From assembly GCF_020164455.1 (NCBI RefSeq), contig NZ_JAIQWW010000001.1, forward strand, positions 434,001 to 498,000: DNA of 64,000 nt, given 5' to 3'. The notes under the pieces are model-generated. The model made no database searches. It was given only the letters and a program-made list of their open reading frames with translations, and was not told the origin of the DNA. A program made the translations under genes and the position numbers. The stretch comes from Phyllobacterium chamaecytisi (GTDB taxonomy: Bacteria > Pseudomonadota > Alphaproteobacteria > Rhizobiales > Rhizobiaceae). Of this stretch, positions 45,709 through 55,524 are shown one piece after another. How positions within the stretch are numbered: the first letter of the stretch is position 1; each line of letters starts with the position of its first letter.

Positions 45709-45819
45709 ATGAACGACGATCTGAAGCCATGGGAAGTGTACGTCACCCTGTTTCTCGTCTCCCTGCTCATCGGGATCGTTGTCCTCGGCTTCATGTCCAT
45801 GGGTGAGGTGCCGGTATGA
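45709..45819 (+). CDS. Tiny membrane protein (36 aa)
   Basis: Reads MNDDLKPWEVYVTLFLVSLL then IGIVVLGFMSMGEVPV. One transmembrane helix with a short cytoplasmic head. GGGGAA precedes the ATG and the stop overlaps the helicase-methylase start (ATGA). Function unknown. Confidence 0.7.
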   Translation: MNDDLKPWEVYVTLFLVSLLIGIVVLGFMSMGEVPV

Positions 45820-48320
45820 GCTACGTCGATTTCCTCAAGAACAAGGTTCGGCTCGCTCCTGTTTCCGGATTCGAGATATCGGATGATGAAGTCAATCCGA
45901 TCCTCAAGTCGCATCAGGCGGCCATCGTCAAATGGGCGGTTCGTGGCGGCAAGCGCGCGATCTTCGCTGCGTTCGGCCTAGGCAAGTCTGTAATCCAGAT
46001 TGAAGTGCTGCGCATCGTCTCGAAGAAGGCCAAGGGCAGGGGATTGATTGTTCTCCCGCTCGGCGTACGGCAAGAGTTCCGCCGCGACGGCCGGATGCTT
46101 GGTGTCGAGATAAAGTTCATTCGCAGCATTGCGGAAGCGGGCGAAACCGGGCTCTACATGACCAACTATGAAACGGTCAGAGACGGCAAGATCGATCCGA
46201 ACGACTTCATTGCCGTCACTCTCGATGAAGCATCGGTGCTTCGCTCCTACGGCTCAAAAACCTATCAGACCTTCCTCACGCTGTTCGATGGCGTCCGGTA
46301 CCGCTTTGTTGCGACGGCAACACCAAGCCCGAACCGCTACAAGGAACTGATCCATTATGCTGGCTTCCTTGGCATCATGGACACTGGTCAGGCGCTGACC
46401 CGGTTCTTTCAGCGGGACAGCACGCAGGCGAACAATCTCACGCTCTATCCGCACAAGGAAAAGGAATTCTGGCTCTGGCTTAATTCCTGGGCGATCTTCC
46501 TGCAACGACCTTCCGATCTCGGATATTCCGATGAAGGCTACAGCCTCCCGCCGTTCAAGGTCATCTATCACGAAGTGCAGTCCGATATCGCTGACGGCGG
46601 TATCGATCGCGACGGTCAGTCAGCCTTGTTCAAGGATACTGCCATTGGTGTTGTGTCAGCTTCGAAGGAGAAGCGCGACACGCTCGAGGCTCGTATCGCA
46701 GCGATGCAATCCATTCTCGCCGCGGCGCCGGCAGATCATTTCATCATCTGGCATGACCTCGAGGATGAACGCCGCGCCATTGAGAAGGCGGTACCTGGAT
46801 CAATCTCAATCTATGGAACGCAGGATCTCGACAAGCGCGAACAGTCGATAGTCGATTTTAGCGACGGCAAGTTCCAGCATCTCGCCGCAAAGCCGGTGAT
46901 TGCAGGATCCGGCTGCAACTTCCAGCGCCATTGCCACAAGGCCATTTTCCTCGGCATCGGCTTCAAGTTCAACGACTTCATTCAGGCGCTGCACCGGATT
47001 TACCGGTTCCTGCAAACCGAACAGGTCGAAATTCACATCATCTACGCCGAGAGCGAGCGCGAAGTGCTGCGGACTCTGCAGGGCAAGTGGGAGGCGCATA
47101 ATCGCATGGTCGAGAACATGAGTGAAATCATCCGGGCCCATGGTCTGGACAAGCTTTCGGCCGCTGATGTGCTGACCCGTTCCATCGGTGTCGAACGGAT
47201 CGAGGCGAAGGGCGATGGCTGGCTGGTTGCGAACAATGATTGCGTCGCTGAAGCGCAGTCCATGGCGGACAACTCCGTCGACATGATCGTCACGTCAATC
47301 CCGTTCTCAAACCACTATGAATATACGCCGAGCTATAACGACTTCGGCCATACCGACAGCGATGCGCATTTCTTTGAGCAAATGGACTTTCTTACGCCGG
47401 AGCTCCTGCGCATCCTGAAGCCCGGCCGGATATACGCCTGCCACACCAAAGACCGGATCATGTTCGGCAACGTCACCGGCATGGGAATGCCGACGGTCAA
47501 TCCGTTCCACGCCAAGACGATGTTTCACACCATGTCACACGGCTTCGCCTACATGGGGATGATCACGATCAATACCGACGTCGTTCGGGAGAACAACCAA
47601 ACCTACCGGCTGGGATGGACGGAAAATTGCAAGGACGGTACCAAGATGGGCGTCGGCTCGCCTGAGTACGTCCTGCTGTTCCGCAAGCTGCCTTCAGACA
47701 CGTCGAAGGCCTATGCCGATGATCGCGTAGCGAAAGACAAGGAAGATTACACCAGGGCCCGCTGGCAGGTCGATGCACATGCGTTCTGGCGTTCATCTGG
47801 CGACCGGCTGCTCACACCCGATGAGCTGGCGTCCATGGGCCCCGATCTTCTTGCCAAGGCCTTCACCGAATGGACGCTCAAGAACGTCTACGACTATGAA
47901 ACCCATATCCGCATAGGCGAGGCACTGGAGCTCCGTGGCGCGCTTCCGTCATCCTTCATGAGTTTGGCACCCGGAGCGCATGACGACTTCACCTGGCACG
48001 ATGTAAACCGGATGCGGACGCTCAATGGCGACCAGACCAAGAAGGGTTTGGAAAATCATATATGCCCTCTCCAGTTCGATATCGTCGACCGGCTGATCAA
48101 GCGGTATTCGAATGAGGGCGATCTCGTATTCGATCCATTCGGCGGCCTGTTCACCGTGCCGTATCGTGCGCTGAAGCTGAAACGCCGCGGTCGCGCCTCC
48201 GAACTCAATCCCGGCTATTTCCTCGACGGTATCAAATACCTTGAGGCTATGGAGCGGGAAGTTTCGACACCAACCATGTTCGATATCTTCGAGACCAAGC
48301 ACTTGGAGGCAGCCGAGTGA
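45816..48320 (+). CDS. SF2 helicase fused to an N4/N6 DNA methyltransferase
   Basis: An 834-residue fusion. The N-terminal half is an SF2/SNF2-like helicase: Walker A GLGKS (54-58), LDEAS (136-140), TATPSPN (167-173) and the late motif ALHRIYRF. The C-terminal half (about 465-820) is a beta-class amino-methyltransferase with motif IV before motif I: TSIPF (493-497) in place of the usual (D/S/N)PP(Y/F), and FDPFGG (772-777). It may modify adenine or N4-cytosine while moving on DNA. Similar fusions occur in phages. Confidence 0.85.
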   Translation: MSYVDFLKNKVRLAPVSGFEISDDEVNPILKSHQAAIVKWAVRGGKRAIFAAFGLGKSVIQIEVLRIVSKKAKGRGLIVLPLGVRQEFRRDGRMLGVEIKFIRSIAEAGETGLYMTNYETVRDGKIDPNDFIAVTLDEASVLRSYGSKTYQTFLTLFDGVRYRFVATATPSPNRYKELIHYAGFLGIMDTGQALTRFFQRDSTQANNLTLYPHKEKEFWLWLNSWAIFLQRPSDLGYSDEGYSLPPFKVIYHEVQSDIADGGIDRDGQSALFKDTAIGVVSASKEKRDTLEARIAAMQSILAAAPADHFIIWHDLEDERRAIEKAVPGSISIYGTQDLDKREQSIVDFSDGKFQHLAAKPVIAGSGCNFQRHCHKAIFLGIGFKFNDFIQALHRIYRFLQTEQVEIHIIYAESEREVLRTLQGKWEAHNRMVENMSEIIRAHGLDKLSAADVLTRSIGVERIEAKGDGWLVANNDCVAEAQSMADNSVDMIVTSIPFSNHYEYTPSYNDFGHTDSDAHFFEQMDFLTPELLRILKPGRIYACHTKDRIMFGNVTGMGMPTVNPFHAKTMFHTMSHGFAYMGMITINTDVVRENNQTYRLGWTENCKDGTKMGVGSPEYVLLFRKLPSDTSKAYADDRVAKDKEDYTRARWQVDAHAFWRSSGDRLLTPDELASMGPDLLAKAFTEWTLKNVYDYETHIRIGEALELRGALPSSFMSLAPGAHDDFTWHDVNRMRTLNGDQTKKGLENHICPLQFDIVDRLIKRYSNEGDLVFDPFGGLFTVPYRALKLKRRGRASELNPGYFLDGIKYLEAMEREVSTPTMFDIFETKHLEAAE

Positions 48321-49531
48321 CGATGCAACCGACACTGTTCGAAGGGTCGAAGCGCCTCGTTTATGACGACGCTATCGAACTGACTTTGCAGTCGATGCAA
48401 GCATATGGCCCCGAACATGAAAATTGGGGCATTGCTTGGTCAGGCGGCAAGGATAGTTCTGCCACCCTGACGCTGATCATTCACTTGATTGACGTAGGCA
48501 AACTGAAGCCACCGAAGAGCCTGACCGTGTTCTATGCCGACACGAGGCTCGAGCTTCCACCGCTGGCGATAGCGGCCGAGCGGATCATGGAACAACTAGC
48601 GGCGCGCGGCATCCGATGCGAGGTCGTTCGCGCACCGCTGGATAAGCGGTTCATGGTCTATATTCTCGGCCGCGGCGTTCCGCCTCCGAACAACAACACC
48701 CTCCGTTGGTGCACGCGTCAGATCAAGATCGATCCTATGGCCGCAGCGCTCGAGGCTCGCATCAATGAGTTTGACGGCAAAATTCTGATGATTACCGGCG
48801 TCCGCGAAGGCGAAAGCGCCATCCGCGACAAGCGCATCACCATGTCGTGTGGCAAAGACGGCGCCGAATGCGGGCAGGGCTGGTATCAGGAAGTTCTGCC
48901 GAACGCCAAAGGCATCCGTGGTCGTATTGCTACTCTCGCGCCGCTGCTCCATTGGCGCGTCTGCAACATATGGGATTGGTTGCGCATCTATGCTCCGATG
49001 ATCGAATATGGCGGATGGTTCACTGCAGCCATTGCCGACGCCTATGGTGGCGACGAGGCGGAAGAGAAGAATGCTCGAACCGGTTGCGCCGGCTGTCCAC
49101 TGGCTTCGAAAGACATGGCGCTTGATACCATCGTGGCGATGCCAGCATGGTCACATCTGGCCCCGCTGAAGCGCTTGAAGCCTCTTTGGCGGAAACTGCG
49201 CGAGCCTGAGAACCGACTGCGTAAGGCTGGCCTGGAGCGGCTGAAGAATGGGTCCGTTGCCGCCAATCCTCAACGCATGGGACCGTTGACCTTCGAAGCG
49301 CGACTGATGGGCCTTGAGACGGTTCTATCTATCCAGGCGGAGTGCAACGCGGAAGCTATCCGGCTCGGCCGCCCGCTTCTCGACATTCTCAATCCCGAAG
49401 AGGAAGAGCGGATCCGTGAACTGATCGCCGCTGAGACTTGGCCACAGGGTTGGGACGGTGACGAACCGACCGCTGACACTCCGATGGACACGATCTTTGC
49501 AGACGGCTCCGTTCAGCCGCTGTTTCTGTGA
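48317..49531 (+). CDS. PAPS-reductase-family protein, DndC-like
   Basis: A 404-residue PP-loop ATPase. SGGKDSS at 42-48 is the PP-loop; NTLRWCTRQIKIDP, ITGVREGES and TGCAGCPLASKD give Cys positions like the Fe-S cluster ligands of DndC. DndC helps put sulfur into the DNA backbone, while other family members reduce PAPS or modify tRNA. No DndA, B, D or E genes are seen nearby. The exact reaction is unknown; its overlap with the methylase gene suggests a joint task. Confidence 0.75.
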   Translation: MTMQPTLFEGSKRLVYDDAIELTLQSMQAYGPEHENWGIAWSGGKDSSATLTLIIHLIDVGKLKPPKSLTVFYADTRLELPPLAIAAERIMEQLAARGIRCEVVRAPLDKRFMVYILGRGVPPPNNNTLRWCTRQIKIDPMAAALEARINEFDGKILMITGVREGESAIRDKRITMSCGKDGAECGQGWYQEVLPNAKGIRGRIATLAPLLHWRVCNIWDWLRIYAPMIEYGGWFTAAIADAYGGDEAEEKNARTGCAGCPLASKDMALDTIVAMPAWSHLAPLKRLKPLWRKLREPENRLRKAGLERLKNGSVAANPQRMGPLTFEARLMGLETVLSIQAECNAEAIRLGRPLLDILNPEEEERIRELIAAETWPQGWDGDEPTADTPMDTIFADGSVQPLFL

Positions 49532-49541
49532 GGGGTGGATT

Positions 49542-50210
49542 ATGAAACACTCTCGATCATCTGCAGAATGGGAAATCCGCGATGCGCTCGTGACGTATTG
49601 CCGGGCATCAATGCCGACCGGCCGGATCGTGCATGAACTCAACACCAGCGGGCAGGGAAGTTGCCGAGCAGACCTTGCAGTGATTGAACCGGACTATCTC
49701 ACTCTATTCGAGATCAAATCGCAGAAAGACACGCTCAAACGGCTTCCCGAGCAATCCAAGGCCTTCGAGGCGTGCAGTCATGAGTTCATTATTTGCGCCC
49801 ATACCAAGCACTTCATCTTTGAAGAGACAGAGCACTATACCTGTCCCGTGAAGCGGTTAAATGCTGACGGTTTTGCATGGAGAGATGACCATGTTTGGGA
49901 ATACCCAGAGCCGCCGAAATATACCGGCCTAGGTGATTTCCGGTGGAAGCTTCGCCGCAACGATCAGTGGAAAAAAGGCAGGCCGTTTGAACCGCGGGCA
50001 TTGTCTATGCTGTCCATGCTTTGGCAGGAAGAGCTTGTAAACATCTGCCATGCCCATCGCATCGCCGTCACAACCCGCGCCACGATCCCGGTCTGCATCA
50101 AGGAAATCACCTGGCACATGACCGGGCAGGAAATCTGCAAAGCAGTATGCAGGGCGTTGCGAGCCAGAACATTCACTGAAGCTGATGCTCCGATGATGGT
50201 GGCAGCGTGA
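49542..50210 (+). CDS. PD-(D/E)XK-type nuclease-like protein
   Basis: A 222-residue protein. SCRADLAVIEPDYLTLFEIK gives an Asp and the E-x-K of a restriction-endonuclease-like fold, followed by EQSKAFEAC. The C-terminal half is basic. The frame is open further upstream, but the ATG at 49542, 11 bases after the previous stop, starts a sensible protein. It may process DNA in replication or degrade host DNA. Confidence 0.68.
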   Translation: MKHSRSSAEWEIRDALVTYCRASMPTGRIVHELNTSGQGSCRADLAVIEPDYLTLFEIKSQKDTLKRLPEQSKAFEACSHEFIICAHTKHFIFEETEHYTCPVKRLNADGFAWRDDHVWEYPEPPKYTGLGDFRWKLRRNDQWKKGRPFEPRALSMLSMLWQEELVNICHAHRIAVTTRATIPVCIKEITWHMTGQEICKAVCRALRARTFTEADAPMMVAA

Positions 50211-50569
50211 GAATGACATCTGCCGAGTTCCGCCAGATGGCAACAGCAAAGCCAACCAAGTATGGCAATGAGCCTGTTTGGATCGATGGCATTCGCTTTG
50301 ACAGCAAAGCCGAGGGCAAGCGCTATTGCGAATTGAAGCTCTTGCAGGCCGCCGGTGAGATTGCTGATCTGGAGTTGCAGCCCAAGTTCAAACTGATCGT
50401 CAATGACGTAGAGGTCTGCACCTATATCGGCGACTTCCGTTATTGGCACAATCATTCCAAGACGCGTGTTTGCGAGGATGTGAAAGGGGTTTCCACACCT
50501 GCTTTCCGTCTAAAGGCAAAGCTGTTTCGTGCCGTCTTTGGCTATGAAATCGTTCTGGTGAAGTCATGA
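50207..50569 (+). CDS. DUF1064 nuclease-like protein
   Basis: A 120-residue DUF1064 protein. FDSKAEGKRYCELKLLQAAG, YIGDFRYW and CEDVKG match a PD-(D/E)XK layout, as in phage Holliday-junction resolvase-like proteins. The start is GTG at 50207 (GTGA overlap) or ATG two codons later. Confidence 0.85.
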   Translation: MRMTSAEFRQMATAKPTKYGNEPVWIDGIRFDSKAEGKRYCELKLLQAAGEIADLELQPKFKLIVNDVEVCTYIGDFRYWHNHSKTRVCEDVKGVSTPAFRLKAKLFRAVFGYEIVLVKS

Positions 50570-51603
50570 CCAGCGCTGCCGTGCGTCTCACCCAGATCGA
50601 CGGAAAGCTGCCGAACCTTGCTTTGATGAAGCTTGCTCACTGGCACAAGTCACGGGGGGATGACGTAATTTTCACCAAGCATATCGAGCGCGACCTATAC
50701 GAGCCCGAGTATCATCGGGTCTATGGCTCTGCCATATTCTCCTATAGCGCAGATCGTGTTGCCCTTTTCAAGGAACAGTTCCCTTCTGCCATTATTGGAG
50801 GGACATGGAACCTTTCCACCCTGACCACCGTCGAAGAGATGATTGGCCAGGACGAATACGAACACTACGATTATTCGATCTATCCGACCTTTGACGCGTC
50901 GATCGGCTTCACACAGCGCGGTTGCCGGCTGAAATGCGGCTTCTGTGTCGTTCAGAAGAAGGAAGGCAAACCGCGTTCGGTCAATACCATCGCTGATATT
51001 TGGCGCGGCGGTTCCTATCCGAAGCATCTGCATCTGCTCGACAATGACTTCTTCGGCCAACCCGAGGATCAATGGCGGGCCCGGCTCAATGAGATACTGG
51101 ACGGCGGCTTTAAGGTTTGCCTGAACCAGGGAATAAACATCCGTCTGATCACAGAGGAAGCCGCTCAAGCGATTGCGACTGTTCCCTACTACGACGACAG
51201 CTTTAAGTACCGACGCCTCTACACGGCTTGGGATAACCTCAGGGATGAGAAGATATTCATGCGCGGTGTGGAGCGCCTAAATAGCGCGGGCGTGCCTCCG
51301 TCTCATCTCATGGTCTATATGCTGGTGGGTTTCGATAAATCCGAAACATGGGAACGGCTGTTCTACCGGTTCAACAAAATGGTCGCCCTCGGCATCCGCC
51401 CTTATCCGATGATCTTCGGCGATCGAGGAAAGACCCTTCCACTCGGAGGCGTCAACGCTCCGATCGCGGATCGAACCCTTGGTGAGTTTCAGCGGTGGGT
51501 GATCCGCAAAGCATATAATTTCGTTCCATTCGAATCCTATGACGTGAACGCCCGCGGAACCTTGGCGCCTGGACAGGGAAATTTGTTCGAGGTGGCCGCA
51601 TGA
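50566..51603 (+). CDS. Radical SAM protein
   Basis: A 345-residue enzyme. The radical SAM cluster site is RGCRLKCGFC (C-x3-C-x2-C) near residue 123. The preceding 110 residues resemble a cobalamin-binding-like fold without an obvious His ligand. LHLLDNDFFGQ and GINIRLITEEAAQAI continue the barrel. Substrate unknown. Overlaps tie it to the DUF1064 gene before and the replication gene after. Confidence 0.88.
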   Translation: MTSAAVRLTQIDGKLPNLALMKLAHWHKSRGDDVIFTKHIERDLYEPEYHRVYGSAIFSYSADRVALFKEQFPSAIIGGTWNLSTLTTVEEMIGQDEYEHYDYSIYPTFDASIGFTQRGCRLKCGFCVVQKKEGKPRSVNTIADIWRGGSYPKHLHLLDNDFFGQPEDQWRARLNEILDGGFKVCLNQGINIRLITEEAAQAIATVPYYDDSFKYRRLYTAWDNLRDEKIFMRGVERLNSAGVPPSHLMVYMLVGFDKSETWERLFYRFNKMVALGIRPYPMIFGDRGKTLPLGGVNAPIADRTLGEFQRWVIRKAYNFVPFESYDVNARGTLAPGQGNLFEVAA

Positions 51604-52818: not shown

Positions 52819-53400
52819 ATGGAAGCGGTGATTGACAAAGACAAGCATTGGTACGTGGTGAGAACCAACGTGAAGAGCGAGGAAAAGGCCTTTGCGAACA
52901 TCCGCAAGGCCGGATACGACACGTATTATCCTCGTCGACGGGTTGAGGTGCAGAATCGACGCACCCATACCTATAAAACGCTCGAAAACCCTTTGATGCC
53001 GCGATACCTATTCGTCGCTTTCTATGTCAGGGACAAGAGCTTCTATCGGGTGACTTGCTGCGACGGTGTCGAATGCATCCTTGGTGTTGATGGCCGTCCC
53101 ATCCAGGTATCTGCCAATAATGTGGAAAAGATTTACCTGGCTGAAATCGACATGAAGTTCGACGATACCCGAGCTGCGAGAATACATCGGCAAGAAGAGT
53201 TGGCATCAGAGAAGGAAAACACAGCGATGCAGTTTCCGGCCGGGCGCAATGTCTTTGTCACAGAAAAGGGAAATCCTTTTGCTACGTTCGGCGGTGTTGT
53301 TGAGGAAGTCACCAAATCCGGCAAGGTCATTGCACTGATAGAACTATTCGGGCGCATGACGGCGGTTCAGTTTGATGGTAAGCAATTGACACCAGCTTAG
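52819..53400 (+). CDS. NusG-like transcription factor (phage antiterminator candidate)
   Basis: A 193-residue NusG paralogue. The NGN domain spans about 10-105 (HWYVVRTNVKSEEKAFANIR, PLMPRYLFVAF) and the C-terminal KOW domain about 135-193 (GRNVFVTEKGNPFATFGGVV). NusG-family proteins ride RNA polymerase; specialised paralogues act as antiterminators. Placed last in the early region before tRNA and late genes, it may let transcription pass the terminators that follow. Confidence 0.85.
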   Translation: MEAVIDKDKHWYVVRTNVKSEEKAFANIRKAGYDTYYPRRRVEVQNRRTHTYKTLENPLMPRYLFVAFYVRDKSFYRVTCCDGVECILGVDGRPIQVSANNVEKIYLAEIDMKFDDTRAARIHRQEELASEKENTAMQFPAGRNVFVTEKGNPFATFGGVVEEVTKSGKVIALIELFGRMTAVQFDGKQLTPA

Positions 53401-53413
53401 GTGGAGGCTTTCC

Positions 53414-53587
53414 ATGAAAGACCCGAGAGAACTGGCAGCGCGTGCGCTGTGTCGAAAGGCCGGTAATCCAGAGAATACAAAGTTCGAAGGCAAGCCGATG
53501 TGGACGTCTTATCTCGATGAAGTTGAGACCGTGCTCGCCGCCGTGAATTATGACGAGCTCGTTGCTTCCTTGGCAAAGAAAGCATAA
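53414..53587 (+). CDS. Small hypothetical protein (57 aa)
   Basis: Begins MKDPRELAARALCRKAGNPE and ends ELVASLAKKA. GGAGG lies seven bases before the ATG. It lies 13 bases after the NusG-like gene. Function unknown; similar short proteins follow other phage early genes. Confidence 0.72.
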   Translation: MKDPRELAARALCRKAGNPENTKFEGKPMWTSYLDEVETVLAAVNYDELVASLAKKA

Positions 53588-53633
53588 TAGGTAGATATCC
53601 CCAGTATCTTGATAAAAATCCTTTTGTGTAGGA

Positions 53634-53668
53634 CGCAAATCAGTATATACGCGCATATGTGATTTGCG
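53634..53668. promoter_or_regulatory. Inverted repeat with AT-rich centre before the tRNA
   Basis: Perfect 9-base arms CGCAAATCA (53634-53642) and TGATTTGCG (53660-53668) flank GTATATACGCGCATATG. A -10-like TATATA lies inside with CTTTTG 17 bases upstream, so it could be a regulated late promoter as well as a hairpin. Confidence 0.45.
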
Positions 53669-53764
53669 CTGCCGCCGGACCTTAGTCATCGGGAACACTC
53701 GCCGGGCGCCTGGGAAGAGCTTCACGGCTTCCCGCCATGGAAAGCTATTCACCAAATTCAGTGT

Positions 53765-53841
53765 GTCGGAGTGGAGCAGTCTGGTAGCTCGTCAGGTTCA
53801 TAACCTGAAGGTCGCAGGTTCGAATCCTGTCTCCGCAACCA
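53765..53841 (+). tRNA. tRNA-Met (CAT), initiator-like, CCA encoded
   Basis: A 77-base tRNA with a D-arm (GGAGCAGTCTGGTAGCTCG) nearly identical to bacterial tRNA-fMet, anticodon loop TTCATAA, T-loop TTCGAAT and a 3' CCA in the DNA. Bases 1 and 2 (G, T) do not pair with 72 and 71 (A, C); lack of pairing at 1:72 is the hallmark of initiator tRNAs. Only two of the three usual G-C pairs at the bottom of the anticodon stem are kept (the third is A-T). Confidence 0.88.
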
Positions 53842-53892
53842 ATTGCCCGGTAGTGCTGCTGGAAAATGCAGATAGACCTCGACCGGGTAAGT

Positions 53893-53940
53893 GCCGCCAC
53901 CCATTGACCGCAGTCTATGCGATAGGGTGGCGGCCTTTCC
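53893..53940 (+). terminator. Terminator-like hairpin after the tRNA
   Basis: A 10-bp stem GCCGCCACCC (53893-53902) with GGGTGGCGGC (53925-53934), containing an inner CGCA/TGCG hairpin, followed by CTTTCC. The short T run makes termination only partial. Confidence 0.65.
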
Positions 53941-54420
53941 ATTCTTGCAGTCGGGTCTGGCCAATCCATCCGCCAAGACGTGCAAGGTCTCGTGGCCCGC
54001 GAGCGATAAAGGAACGGGCGAGCGCATGCCGGGCGTGCTTCTGTTGAGAAGCGATACGGGCGCCAGCGGGTCAGTGGCCTTCTCGTTTGGTGGCACCCTT
54101 GGAAGAGGTCTCCATGGCGGTAGGATCCCGCCCTGTCTGGCGAGAGACGGTAAACCTCGCATAGTTCCCAGCGCCGGCACACACCCCGGCTCACCTTCAT
54201 TTCGTTTCCGGTAAATCGGGATGCGGGGACATCAGGAACCGGCAGGTAAGTGCGCTCCCACAGGAGGCCAGAAGCCTGATAGCGAGGCGCGGAACGGGTA
54301 TCATACCGGTCTACGGCGTGGAGTGGGGAAGCCCCAGTCTCGAAGTTTCGCCACATGGTGGCAGGGATGGCCAGTAATCGCGGATCAGAATGCCGTGGTG
54401 AATACCATCCCAATCTGTCC
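53941..54420 (+). ncRNA. Candidate large structured phage RNA with a 16S-rRNA-like module
   Basis: About 480 bases without a credible gene, between the tRNA terminator hairpin and the terminator at 54422. Many local hairpins are visible: GCTTCT/AGAAGC with a GTTG loop (54037-54052), GGCGG/CCGCC (54116-54132), TGGGG/CCCCA (54324-54336) and a 3' domain closed by GGGATGG/CCATCCC (54364-54411). The last one carries a 16S helix-43-like sequence. Location beside a phage tRNA is typical of giant phage RNAs such as GOLLD and ROOL, but I cannot say it is one. Strand is inferred from the rRNA sense and the terminator. Confidence 0.6.
54368..54411 (+). ncRNA. 16S rRNA helix 43-like segment
   Basis: Matches bases roughly 1340-1388 (E. 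coli numbering) of 16S rRNA: CAGTAATCG, GGATCAGAATGCC and GGTGAATAC appear in order with the same spacing. By hand against remembered E. coli 16S, 37 of 44 positions agree. The helix 43 stem is kept by changes on both sides (CGCGG with CCGTG, where E. coli has CGTGG with CCACG). The similarity stops at TCCC. Confidence 0.8.
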
Positions 54421-54421
54421 G

Positions 54422-54442
54422 CCCCGCCTTGTGCGGGGCTTT
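54422..54442 (+). terminator. Terminator before the small late genes
   Basis: CCCCGC (54422-54427) and GCGGGG (54433-54438) with a CTTGT loop, followed by CTTT. It would end the preceding RNA. Confidence 0.65.
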
Positions 54443-54457
54443 CATTGGAGAGCAGTG

Positions 54458-54637
54458 ATGAACGCGTGCAACTGCATCGGCCCTCAAAACGGCAATCCAC
54501 TCTGCCCCTGCATGATGCGCGGCGTCACCGTTGAAAACGGGCGTTATGTCCAGAAGACAGATCTCGGTCCCGCACCTGCAGAGGTAGGCGGGAAATCATG
54601 GCTCACCCGTCAACCTGCGAAAAGGAAACTGACATGA
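54458..54637 (+). CDS. Small Cys-rich hypothetical protein (59 aa)
   Basis: Begins MNACNCIGPQNGNPLCPCMM, with Cys pairs, and ends in a basic tail. GGAGAG lies before the ATG. Function unknown. Its stop overlaps the next start (ATGA). Confidence 0.68.
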   Translation: MNACNCIGPQNGNPLCPCMMRGVTVENGRYVQKTDLGPAPAEVGGKSWLTRQPAKRKLT

Positions 54638-54843
54638 CTACGACTGTAATCGTTAAGGCAAATCACGGCTGGCCGGTTGATGTAACGCCACGCGATCCAA
54701 AGACGGGCGAAGCGTTGGATCACTATCCGACACAGCGCGTCGAGCCAAACACCGAACGCATGGTCCACGTTCACTCGGGTATGGATCTGCTTATTCATGA
54801 AGTCCAGCCGGACGAAATCAAAAGCGACGACGACGGCGCTTAA
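54634..54843 (+). CDS. Small hypothetical phage protein (69 aa)
   Basis: Begins MTTTVIVKANHGWPVDVTPR and has an acidic end (EIKSDDDGA). All-beta by appearance. Start at 54634 by ATGA overlap. Function unknown. Confidence 0.7.
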   Translation: MTTTVIVKANHGWPVDVTPRDPKTGEALDHYPTQRVEPNTERMVHVHSGMDLLIHEVQPDEIKSDDDGA

Positions 54844-54926
54844 CACCATCCCCCGCACCTCATAGTGCGCTTGCGGCGGCCTTTCGGGTCGCCGTTCTCA
54901 TTTCACCAACCCGAAAGGAACCAAGC
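54844..54926 (+). terminator. Short intergenic with a hairpin
   Basis: GGCGGCC and GGTCGCC around CTTTC (near 54874-54893) form a hairpin followed by GTTCTCATTT. Weak terminator at best. CCGAAAGGAACC before 54927 holds the next gene's ribosome binding site. Confidence 0.4.
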
Positions 54927-55232
54927 ATGCGAATGTTTCGAAGTATCATGTTCTGCAGTCTGGCAATGTTTGCCGCTGCCATCATTTATGTGACGCCCTC
55001 CAGTGCGGAATATCACCGCTCAGATGCTGGAATCTACAGCCTGGCATTCACCGACTTCGACTATATGGCTCCGCTGGCCGTGCACATTGATGTGGAACGC
55101 CTCGCTGTTGTCCATGCCGATGATCCCATGAAATTGGTCAAATCGCGAAGTATCGGCATTCTCAAGCCGGTCTATCAGGCTTCGCTCATCACCGACGGTC
55201 AGAACCTCATCGATCTTCGAATGCGCTGCTAG
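54927..55232 (+). CDS. Exported hypothetical protein
   Basis: A 101-residue protein with a signal peptide (about 1-27, ending SSAEY). No domain recognised. AAAGGAA precedes the ATG. It could act in the cell envelope during lysis or exclusion, but nothing specific supports this. Confidence 0.65.
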   Translation: MRMFRSIMFCSLAMFAAAIIYVTPSSAEYHRSDAGIYSLAFTDFDYMAPLAVHIDVERLAVVHADDPMKLVKSRSIGILKPVYQASLITDGQNLIDLRMRC

Positions 55233-55335
55233 CGTCTCTAAATCGAGCCGGGTGCCACAACGCGCCCGGTTCTTCCGATGTTCATCTCTGCTTCCTCGAA
55301 TCGAGGACGAAGAAATTAACATAGGGGTTTCAATC

Positions 55336-55524
55336 ATGGGTGATATCGGCGGTGCATTCAAAATGCTCCTGATAGTTGCATGCTTCGGTCTCGCCTTCAT
55401 CGGCTCAATGGCTGTTAGCGCACTCGTGGCCATATTCGCTCCTGTCAGCATCTTCTATGCAATTGGCTTTGCTTTGCTCGTTAGCACGCTCGCCAGCTTC
55501 TACGTTTCGGCAAAGGTGCAGTGA
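55336..55524 (+). CDS. Small membrane protein with two TM helices, holin-like
   Basis: A 62-residue protein starting MGDIGGAFKMLLIVACFGLA. Two hydrophobic helices with a short turn (IGSMAVSALVAIFAPVSIF) make it a possible holin by size and topology. No endolysin gene is adjacent, so this stays a guess. A longer in-frame reading upstream is not protein-like. Confidence 0.6.
   Translation: MGDIGGAFKMLLIVACFGLAFIGSMAVSALVAIFAPVSIFYAIGFALLVSTLASFYVSAKVQ

Follow-up and report, generated by a model that had tools for sequence, protein, structure and literature searches.

The locus analysed here raises the question of why a prophage carries a segment that reads like helix 43 (h43) of 16S rRNA: is it a stray piece of host rRNA or an RNA domain that phages maintain, and what might recognise it? 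The window, i.e. the whole 64-kb stretch of Phyllobacterium chamaecytisi DNA that was analysed, holds this segment in an RNA locus situated after a NusG-like antiterminator gene and before the terminase genes (Table 1).

Table 1. Features of the prophage RNA locus, in window coordinates
Feature	Position	Strand	Evidence and remarks
NusG-like phage transcription antiterminator gene	52819..53400	+	Pfam NusG 8.4e-17; PHROG antiterminator 1.1e-22
tRNA-Met(CAU), initiator (fMet) type	53765..53841	+	ARAGORN; A at 72, non-Watson-Crick 1:72 (own reading)
Hairpin element of ~100 nt, terminator-like hairpin at its end	53845..53944	+	82-86% matches to Sinorhizobium meliloti replicons
5' domain of the large RNA	53943..54200	+	Common to the window, L002, L021 and L027
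Conserved core of 152 positions	54201..54352	+	Model R1, 160.9 bits; over 20 sequences, pairing in 99.6% of 693 cells, with 5/35 pairs changed on both sides
Small GCC...GGC hairpin between core and module	54350..54362	+	Sequence; corresponds to the hairpin with which 3' units begin in other members
h43 module	54364-54411	+	Closing stem 54364-54370 x 54405-54411; helix 54377-54383 x 54393-54399; model R3, 72.1 bits (the window being 1 of the 8 sequences from which R3 was built)
Intrinsic terminator ending the locus	54421..54439	+	Pair probabilities 0.8-0.95

Match of the module to 16S rRNA

Local alignment paired the module with the h43 segment of 16S rRNA over 48 gap-free columns, with 42/48 identities to Acinetobacter, 40/48 to Salmonella (both counted by hand from the alignments) and 41/48 to Sinorhizobium. 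The preliminary description had counted 37 of 44 bases at 54368-54411 against an E. coli-like sequence; this count was right, and the match extends over 54364-54411. The local score against 16S was 66, the maximum among 1000 dinucleotide shuffles of the region was 36 (Gumbel p 1.3e-11), and the rest of the window, taken in 600-base pieces, scored no higher than 32. Within 53750-54450, only the h43 segment and the tRNA-Met matched a Rhizobium rrn operon. The module is homologous to h43 of 16S rRNA. The Rfam search proposed earlier matched the bacterial SSU model (RF00177) to 54324-54412 with 18.8 bits (E 0.011), below the gathering score of 50 that a complete SSU rRNA gene would exceed, and returned neither GOLLD nor ROOL.

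The 7-bp closing stem described earlier was exact, with a pair probability of about 0.94 when 53943-54446 was folded, and both helices of the module had pair probabilities of about 0.9 within this 504-nt RNA. The 48-mer also folded alone (z -3.18). A Sinorhizobium 16S differed from the module at 7 of the 48 positions, including a C/A difference in the loop. The claim that the module departs from the usual alphaproteobacterial form therefore held against this sequence but not in general, since the A variant also occurred in the 16S-like match of a same-family genome (G752). Four of the 7 differences fell in the closing stem and raised its Watson-Crick pairs from 5/7 to 7/7, a gain seen in 765 of 400001 random trials (1992 with G-U counted) and modest by itself. 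In 16S numbering, A1339 is replaced by G in the module, and the closing stem takes up positions 1337-1343. With the bases concerned changed or paired, the idea that the module copies the P-site contact was rejected.

A large RNA with a conserved core

In the reading favoured here, which as a whole we place a little below an even chance, the stretch that contains the module would be transcribed behind the initiator-type tRNA as a non-coding RNA of the prophage, about 500 nt long and with the module ending its 3' stem. The locus had been described as gene-free, hairpin-rich and bounded by terminators. An intrinsic terminator does end it, but 53842-54446 as a whole was not more stable than shuffled sequences (z -1.45), and a tRNA lies at 53765-53841. 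A 251-codon frame on the minus strand spans the locus; a coding reading was ruled out by the gaps among 4 full-length homologues, 31 of 33 of which were not multiples of three, and by the part of the frame that is antisense to the tRNA. The large RNA had no Rfam match.

Loci with the core were gathered with BLAST, patterns and models. Not counting duplicate contigs, the core was confirmed by model R1 at 27 places with more than 90 bits, 25 of them distinct (the duplicates L015, L017, L019, L030, L034, L038 and L088 are outside the counts). Twenty of the 25 distinct loci were aligned, leaving out L004, L010, L011, L029 and L035, and gave a covariation score of 0.157, compared with at most 0.040 when partners were slid; two of five shuffle measures showed little or no gain (both-sided pairs, 18/500; further pair types, 494/500). 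Folding of single sequences mostly missed the core (z 0.02), so its structure rests on covariation, which argues for a structured phage RNA as had been proposed.

Core loci with a named organism are Rhizobiales, by their record titles or by the known placement of the organism. The core was found in 2 of 397 genomes of the order, one of them doubtful, and by the family pattern search in 6 of 394, 4 of which were confirmed, the window included; the core is therefore rare. Many core loci came from IMG/VR, some keeping terminase synteny; the plasmid loci L002 and L004 had no annotated phage gene nearby. Partial synteny with the window locus was seen in L013, L016, L018/L088 and L026. Starting from the window's terminase, the core was present in 1 of 80 loci kept (of 241), some of which were too short upstream to show it. 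In L013, L014, L026 and L029, weak relatives of the antiterminator (23-25% identity) lay upstream of the core, no more than about 1.4 kb away.

Several candidates for membership were set aside: L045 reads as coding sequence, L025 (an Acidobacteria contig) and L036 appeared chance-like, L033 had no R1 match, and L032 is doubtful at 28.7 bits. L126 (6265-6305) and L127 have the family's 5' element alone, without the core, before a gene that looks HNH-like by eye, and were not counted as members. A 5S-like module suspected by eye in L028 had no Rfam match. Neighbouring prophage genes at 45816-51603 of the window encode a DNA methylase, part of which weakly resembles SNF2, together with a protein like PAPS reductase and a radical SAM protein.

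tRNAs and 3' ends of the family

A tRNA was found near the core in 19 of the 25 distinct loci (within 700 nt upstream and 450 nt downstream, less at contig ends). CAU tRNAs occurred at 11 loci, all with A72 by our own reading. Over 76 nt, the window tRNA showed 89.5% identity to a tRNA-Met of Rhizobium that lies about 4 kb past the tRNA-Ala of an rrn operon, where the end of that operon is expected. By our own reading, the mismatches G1.A72 and U2.C71 were common to the initiator-type tRNAs of the window (53765-53841), L002, L011 and L021; the Rhizobium tRNA differs from these in having C1/G2. The element of about 100 nt that follows the tRNA in the window has a copy on pSymB lying between genes (own reading) and is absent from L002, where the tRNA adjoins the large RNA. 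This element may form a boundary between the tRNA and the large RNA, and could be a small RNA of the host that the phage carries.

Downstream of the core, 24 loci had sequence that could be classified by our own reading: tRNA-Thr(UGU) in 7, an immediate terminator-like hairpin in 4, a fused tRNA-Met in 1, a unit opening with the GCC hairpin and bearing other tips in 8, the h43 module in 1 (the window), and an unclear arrangement in 3. The tRNA-Thr started no more than 2 bases from the core end in L009, L013, L016, L023, L024, L027 and L035, so that tRNA 5' processing would set the 3' end of the RNA there. Members sharing the window's 5' domain (L002, L021 and L027) were without the module. With only one of 24 members carrying it, h43 mimicry is not the general function of this RNA family. 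An rRNA origin of the 3' tips of the other 24 distinct loci was rejected, their best 16S score being at most 29 compared with 66 in the window, and BLAST of 4 of them showed no evident rRNA. Tandem 3' units opening with a TTCGCC...GGC hairpin were seen by eye in L003 (8190-8510) and L018 (10750-11196, minus strand), with tips varying between similar closing stems.

The same module at other phage loci

The 32-nt module recurred, with other stems closing it, at seven further distinct phage loci: 4 IMG/VR contigs, a Microcystis phage, and Brevundimonas and Caulobacter jumbo phages. A pattern with 20 fixed bases inside the module and the closing stem left free, searched against viral contigs, gave L145-L149, of which 4 were distinct (the stretches of L148 and L149 are identical), each module on its own stem; the columns fixed by the pattern are no evidence of conservation in these loci. 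Earlier h43 patterns with more fixed bases had given 0 matches.

The remaining loci were hand-picked, between annotated genes, from weak BLAST rows obtained with the L147 and L181 modules as queries (E 2 for L181, 0.1 for L179/L180 and 6 for L183), other weak rows being left aside; L181 was also matched at E 5e-7 with the L145 module as query. Model R2 gave 59.6 bits for the Microcystis phage (L181), 37.7 for the Brevundimonas phages (L179/L180) and 56.4 for the Caulobacter phage CcrSC (L183), with E values of 1e-14, 1.3e-8 and 2.7e-15, respectively, for the small stretches searched. Because R2 scored rRNA controls at 50.5-54.7 bits, its bits alone cannot part these loci from rRNA; it is the phage setting and the changes within the helix that tell them apart. 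Model R3, which was built from the 8 modules and matches them by construction, scored them at 60-78 bits, 5 rRNA controls at 51-57 bits, and each of the other core-family loci of the 25-locus set at less than 13 bits. BLAST statistics were the same for Papperlapapp and 7 further records of Caulobacter phages, which are outside the counts. A match in VpKK5 (L182) was chance-like (10.3 bits with R2), and L076 was rejected at 20.5 bits.

The core family was absent from all 9 module loci besides the window (R1 at most 6.2 bits), which places 7 of the 8 modules outside the window's RNA family. Among 297 genomes of the order and 367 of the class, only the window's own copy exceeded 56 bits; these searches used strict filters, much rRNA seemed to be missing or masked in the genomes, and matches scoring 34-55 bits were assigned to rRNA on their score alone, so that a module like that of L179 could hide among them.

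The surroundings of the module bear on the possibility that it is a cis operator, in which free uS7 would bind the h43-like hairpin of a phage transcript and control translation or stability of the neighbouring gene. Such an action of uS7 on its own str mRNA has been reported (PMC10931766). In L147 the distance from the end of the aligned module to an ATG is 31 nt (read by eye); in L183, 33 nt separate that end from the portal gene, which is annotated, and in L148 a possible start follows the module shortly (by eye). In the window, however, a terminator stands between the module and the next gene; in L179 the nearest downstream annotated gene is 238 nt away on the opposite strand, and in L146 a tRNA follows. 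We consider cis control unlikely on balance. The positions taken together, ahead of a portal gene, next to a tRNA and terminal in a large RNA, would fit a decoy or anchor acting in trans and a cis operator alike.

At L146, positions 190-600 of the minus strand had no evident gene and contained the module followed by tRNA-Met(CAU), with no core-family match; this is perhaps a second RNA of similar make-up. A 466-nt gap without annotated genes (L179, 2814-3279) follows the spanin genes of the Brevundimonas jumbo phage and contains the module, and may be another large phage RNA.

Covariation and constancy of the module

In the gap-free alignment of the 8 distinct modules, 11 of 15 pairs were changed on both sides, 90.8% of 120 cells were paired, and the covariation score was 0.633, compared with at most 0.145 when partners were slid (0/500 shuffles). 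With the first 5 modules, 4 of which came from the pattern that left the stem free, 6 of 8 closing-stem pairs changed on both sides (score 0.553, at most 0.173 slid). The h43 helix was 96.4% paired, with both-sided changes in 4 of its 7 pairs; these stem from L179, L181 and L183, all found by BLAST, and are mostly compensating, with one A.C mismatch each in L181 and L183. AGUA, AUCAG, UG, two CG steps and GAAU were invariant, being partly fixed by the pattern, and 7 of 9 loop positions were constant. Helix, loop and junction strands were kept under substitution in the 8 modules. Position 1345 in 16S numbering is C in 7 of the 8 modules and T in the 7 16S rows compared.

The innermost closing-stem position was unpaired in 4 of the 8 modules, L179 had only 4 of 8 closing-stem positions paired, and the closing stems of L145 and L181 were nearly the same; owing to the likeness of the latter two and the half stem of L179, the 8 modules do not represent 8 independent stems. 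The counts leave out L149 and L180 and refer to a small set selected non-blindly.

These data bear directly on the reading of the module as an inert, recent insertion of a host rRNA fragment. It could be argued from the closeness of the 16S match, from the occurrence of the same loop variant in the 16S-like match of G752, and from the fact that within the RNA family only the window member carries the module. Recurrence on covarying stems, to which the repaired closing stem of the window adds modestly, largely refutes it, and we regard it as very improbable. The idea of an h43 mimic fared better in that seven further loci keep the module on differing, covarying stems; it did not extend to the RNA family, with 1 of 24 members, nor fully to L179. 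Varying stems together with a mostly constant loop and junction strands would be the signature of an RNA read by a partner that recognises h43.

A different account of the constant loop is an assembly block. The module would then join RNA to RNA by kissing through the self-complementary GAUC at the loop start, as in multimeric ornate RNAs, and its likeness to h43 would reflect descent and not functional mimicry. Kissing loops partly hold the complexes of GOLLD, ROOL and OLE together (PMC12286853), and the constancy of 7 of the 9 loop positions would suit this account, although L148 has AAUC for GAUC. However, AGUA and GAAU vary no more than the loop does, a constancy that loop kissing alone does not need, and 7 of the 8 modules lie outside the window's RNA family. 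This reading appears somewhat less likely still than cis control.

Proposed function

We tentatively propose that the prophage RNA module is a phage-maintained mimic that presents the h43 surface to a component of the 30S subunit, with uS7 as the first candidate; this seems a serious possibility, if not quite a probable one. Most of the h43 loop is retained in the module, as are AGUA and GAAU, the strands that face the junction; one varying stem replaces the rest of the three-way junction, so that the module would fold alone. The h43 surface would then be offered to the host 30S component, presumably uS7; the RNA, with any linked tRNA, might be held on free uS7 or on assembling 30S heads, or uS7 might be drawn away. 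Transcription of the RNA, uS7 as its partner and a benefit to the phage are all assumed in this scheme. It has been reported that uS7 touches H43 early and that its site covers the H28/H29/H43 junction; the full site also includes the H29/H30/H41/H42 junction (PMC13004024). No counterpart of the latter is present in the module, and binding may therefore be weaker or different.

The same conserved surface might instead serve as decoy or bait for another reader of h43, such as uS9, uS13, an rRNA-modifying or assembly factor, or a nuclease of the host or a rival phage directed against 16S rRNA. The carrier phages infect Brevundimonas, Microcystis and Caulobacter, which would be compatible with such a target; against it, no such factor was identified in this analysis and no paper on one was found among titles and abstract beginnings. 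We consider it improbable, with only an inert insertion being less likely.

Comparison with known systems

Compared with h43 in 16S rRNA (RF00177), the putative uS7-directed module shares the loop, the helix and the AGUA and GAAU strands. It differs in its presence in phage genomes and in having a single other stem close it where h43 would join h28 and h29. The uS7 operator in str mRNA is likewise a non-rRNA RNA resembling the 16S site of uS7, through which the protein represses str mRNA (PMC10931766); unlike that operator, the module is borne by phages and not by rpsL-rpsG, lies in or beside non-coding RNA, and has uS7 as a candidate partner.

The large RNA resembles GOLLD (RF02032) and ROOL in lying near tRNAs, here often tRNA-Met. 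Many of its copies lie in phages or prophages, but the annotation of the plasmid loci L002 and L004 shows no such setting. A conserved 3' part and a variable 5' part, as reported for GOLLD (PMC12286853), were also observed: a tRNA was present at 19 of 25 loci, the core in 25 and the window's 5' domain in 4. The likeness is in setting, not in sequence. GOLLD and ROOL gave no match in cmscan of window positions 53000-55500 (E<=1), of 14 loci (E<=5), or in Rfam scans of L145-L149 and L179-L181 (E<=1). At E<=10 the GOLLD model had no match in any of 12 genomes or records, and none above the cut-off in 14 control genomes either, so that this search had no positive control. Identity with a known large RNA of these two classes was rejected, as the models do not match. 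Binding of GOLLD to ribosomes has been reported from pull-downs, with tRNAs as a possible cargo, and OLE, also a large RNA, has been proposed to sequester the small-subunit protein RpsU (PMC12286853). Unlike the present case, no rRNA-like module is described for OLE in the passages of that paper, and the locus had no Rfam OLE match.

Implications

A broader view would be that widely different phages keep an RNA domain imitating the uS7/h43 corner of the 30S head, and that the prophage RNAs linked to initiator tRNAs seize ribosomal parts or steer translation initiation; we think this rather doubtful as a whole, less likely than the proposed mimic itself. Ribosomal-protein operons are known to contain RNA elements that imitate binding sites of rRNA; for phages, none was found described among the titles, abstract beginnings and passages covered. 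The recurrence of the h43 hairpin in phages of different hosts suggests, on comparative grounds, that phages imitate part of the small subunit. That the hairpin covaries and is found in phages of Caulobacter, Brevundimonas and Microcystis as well as in a rhizobial prophage points to a small-subunit target common to the hosts. As to what large phage RNAs close to tRNAs might do, the module suggests a candidate partner. If the proposal is true, mimicry of ribosomal RNA would be a phage strategy.
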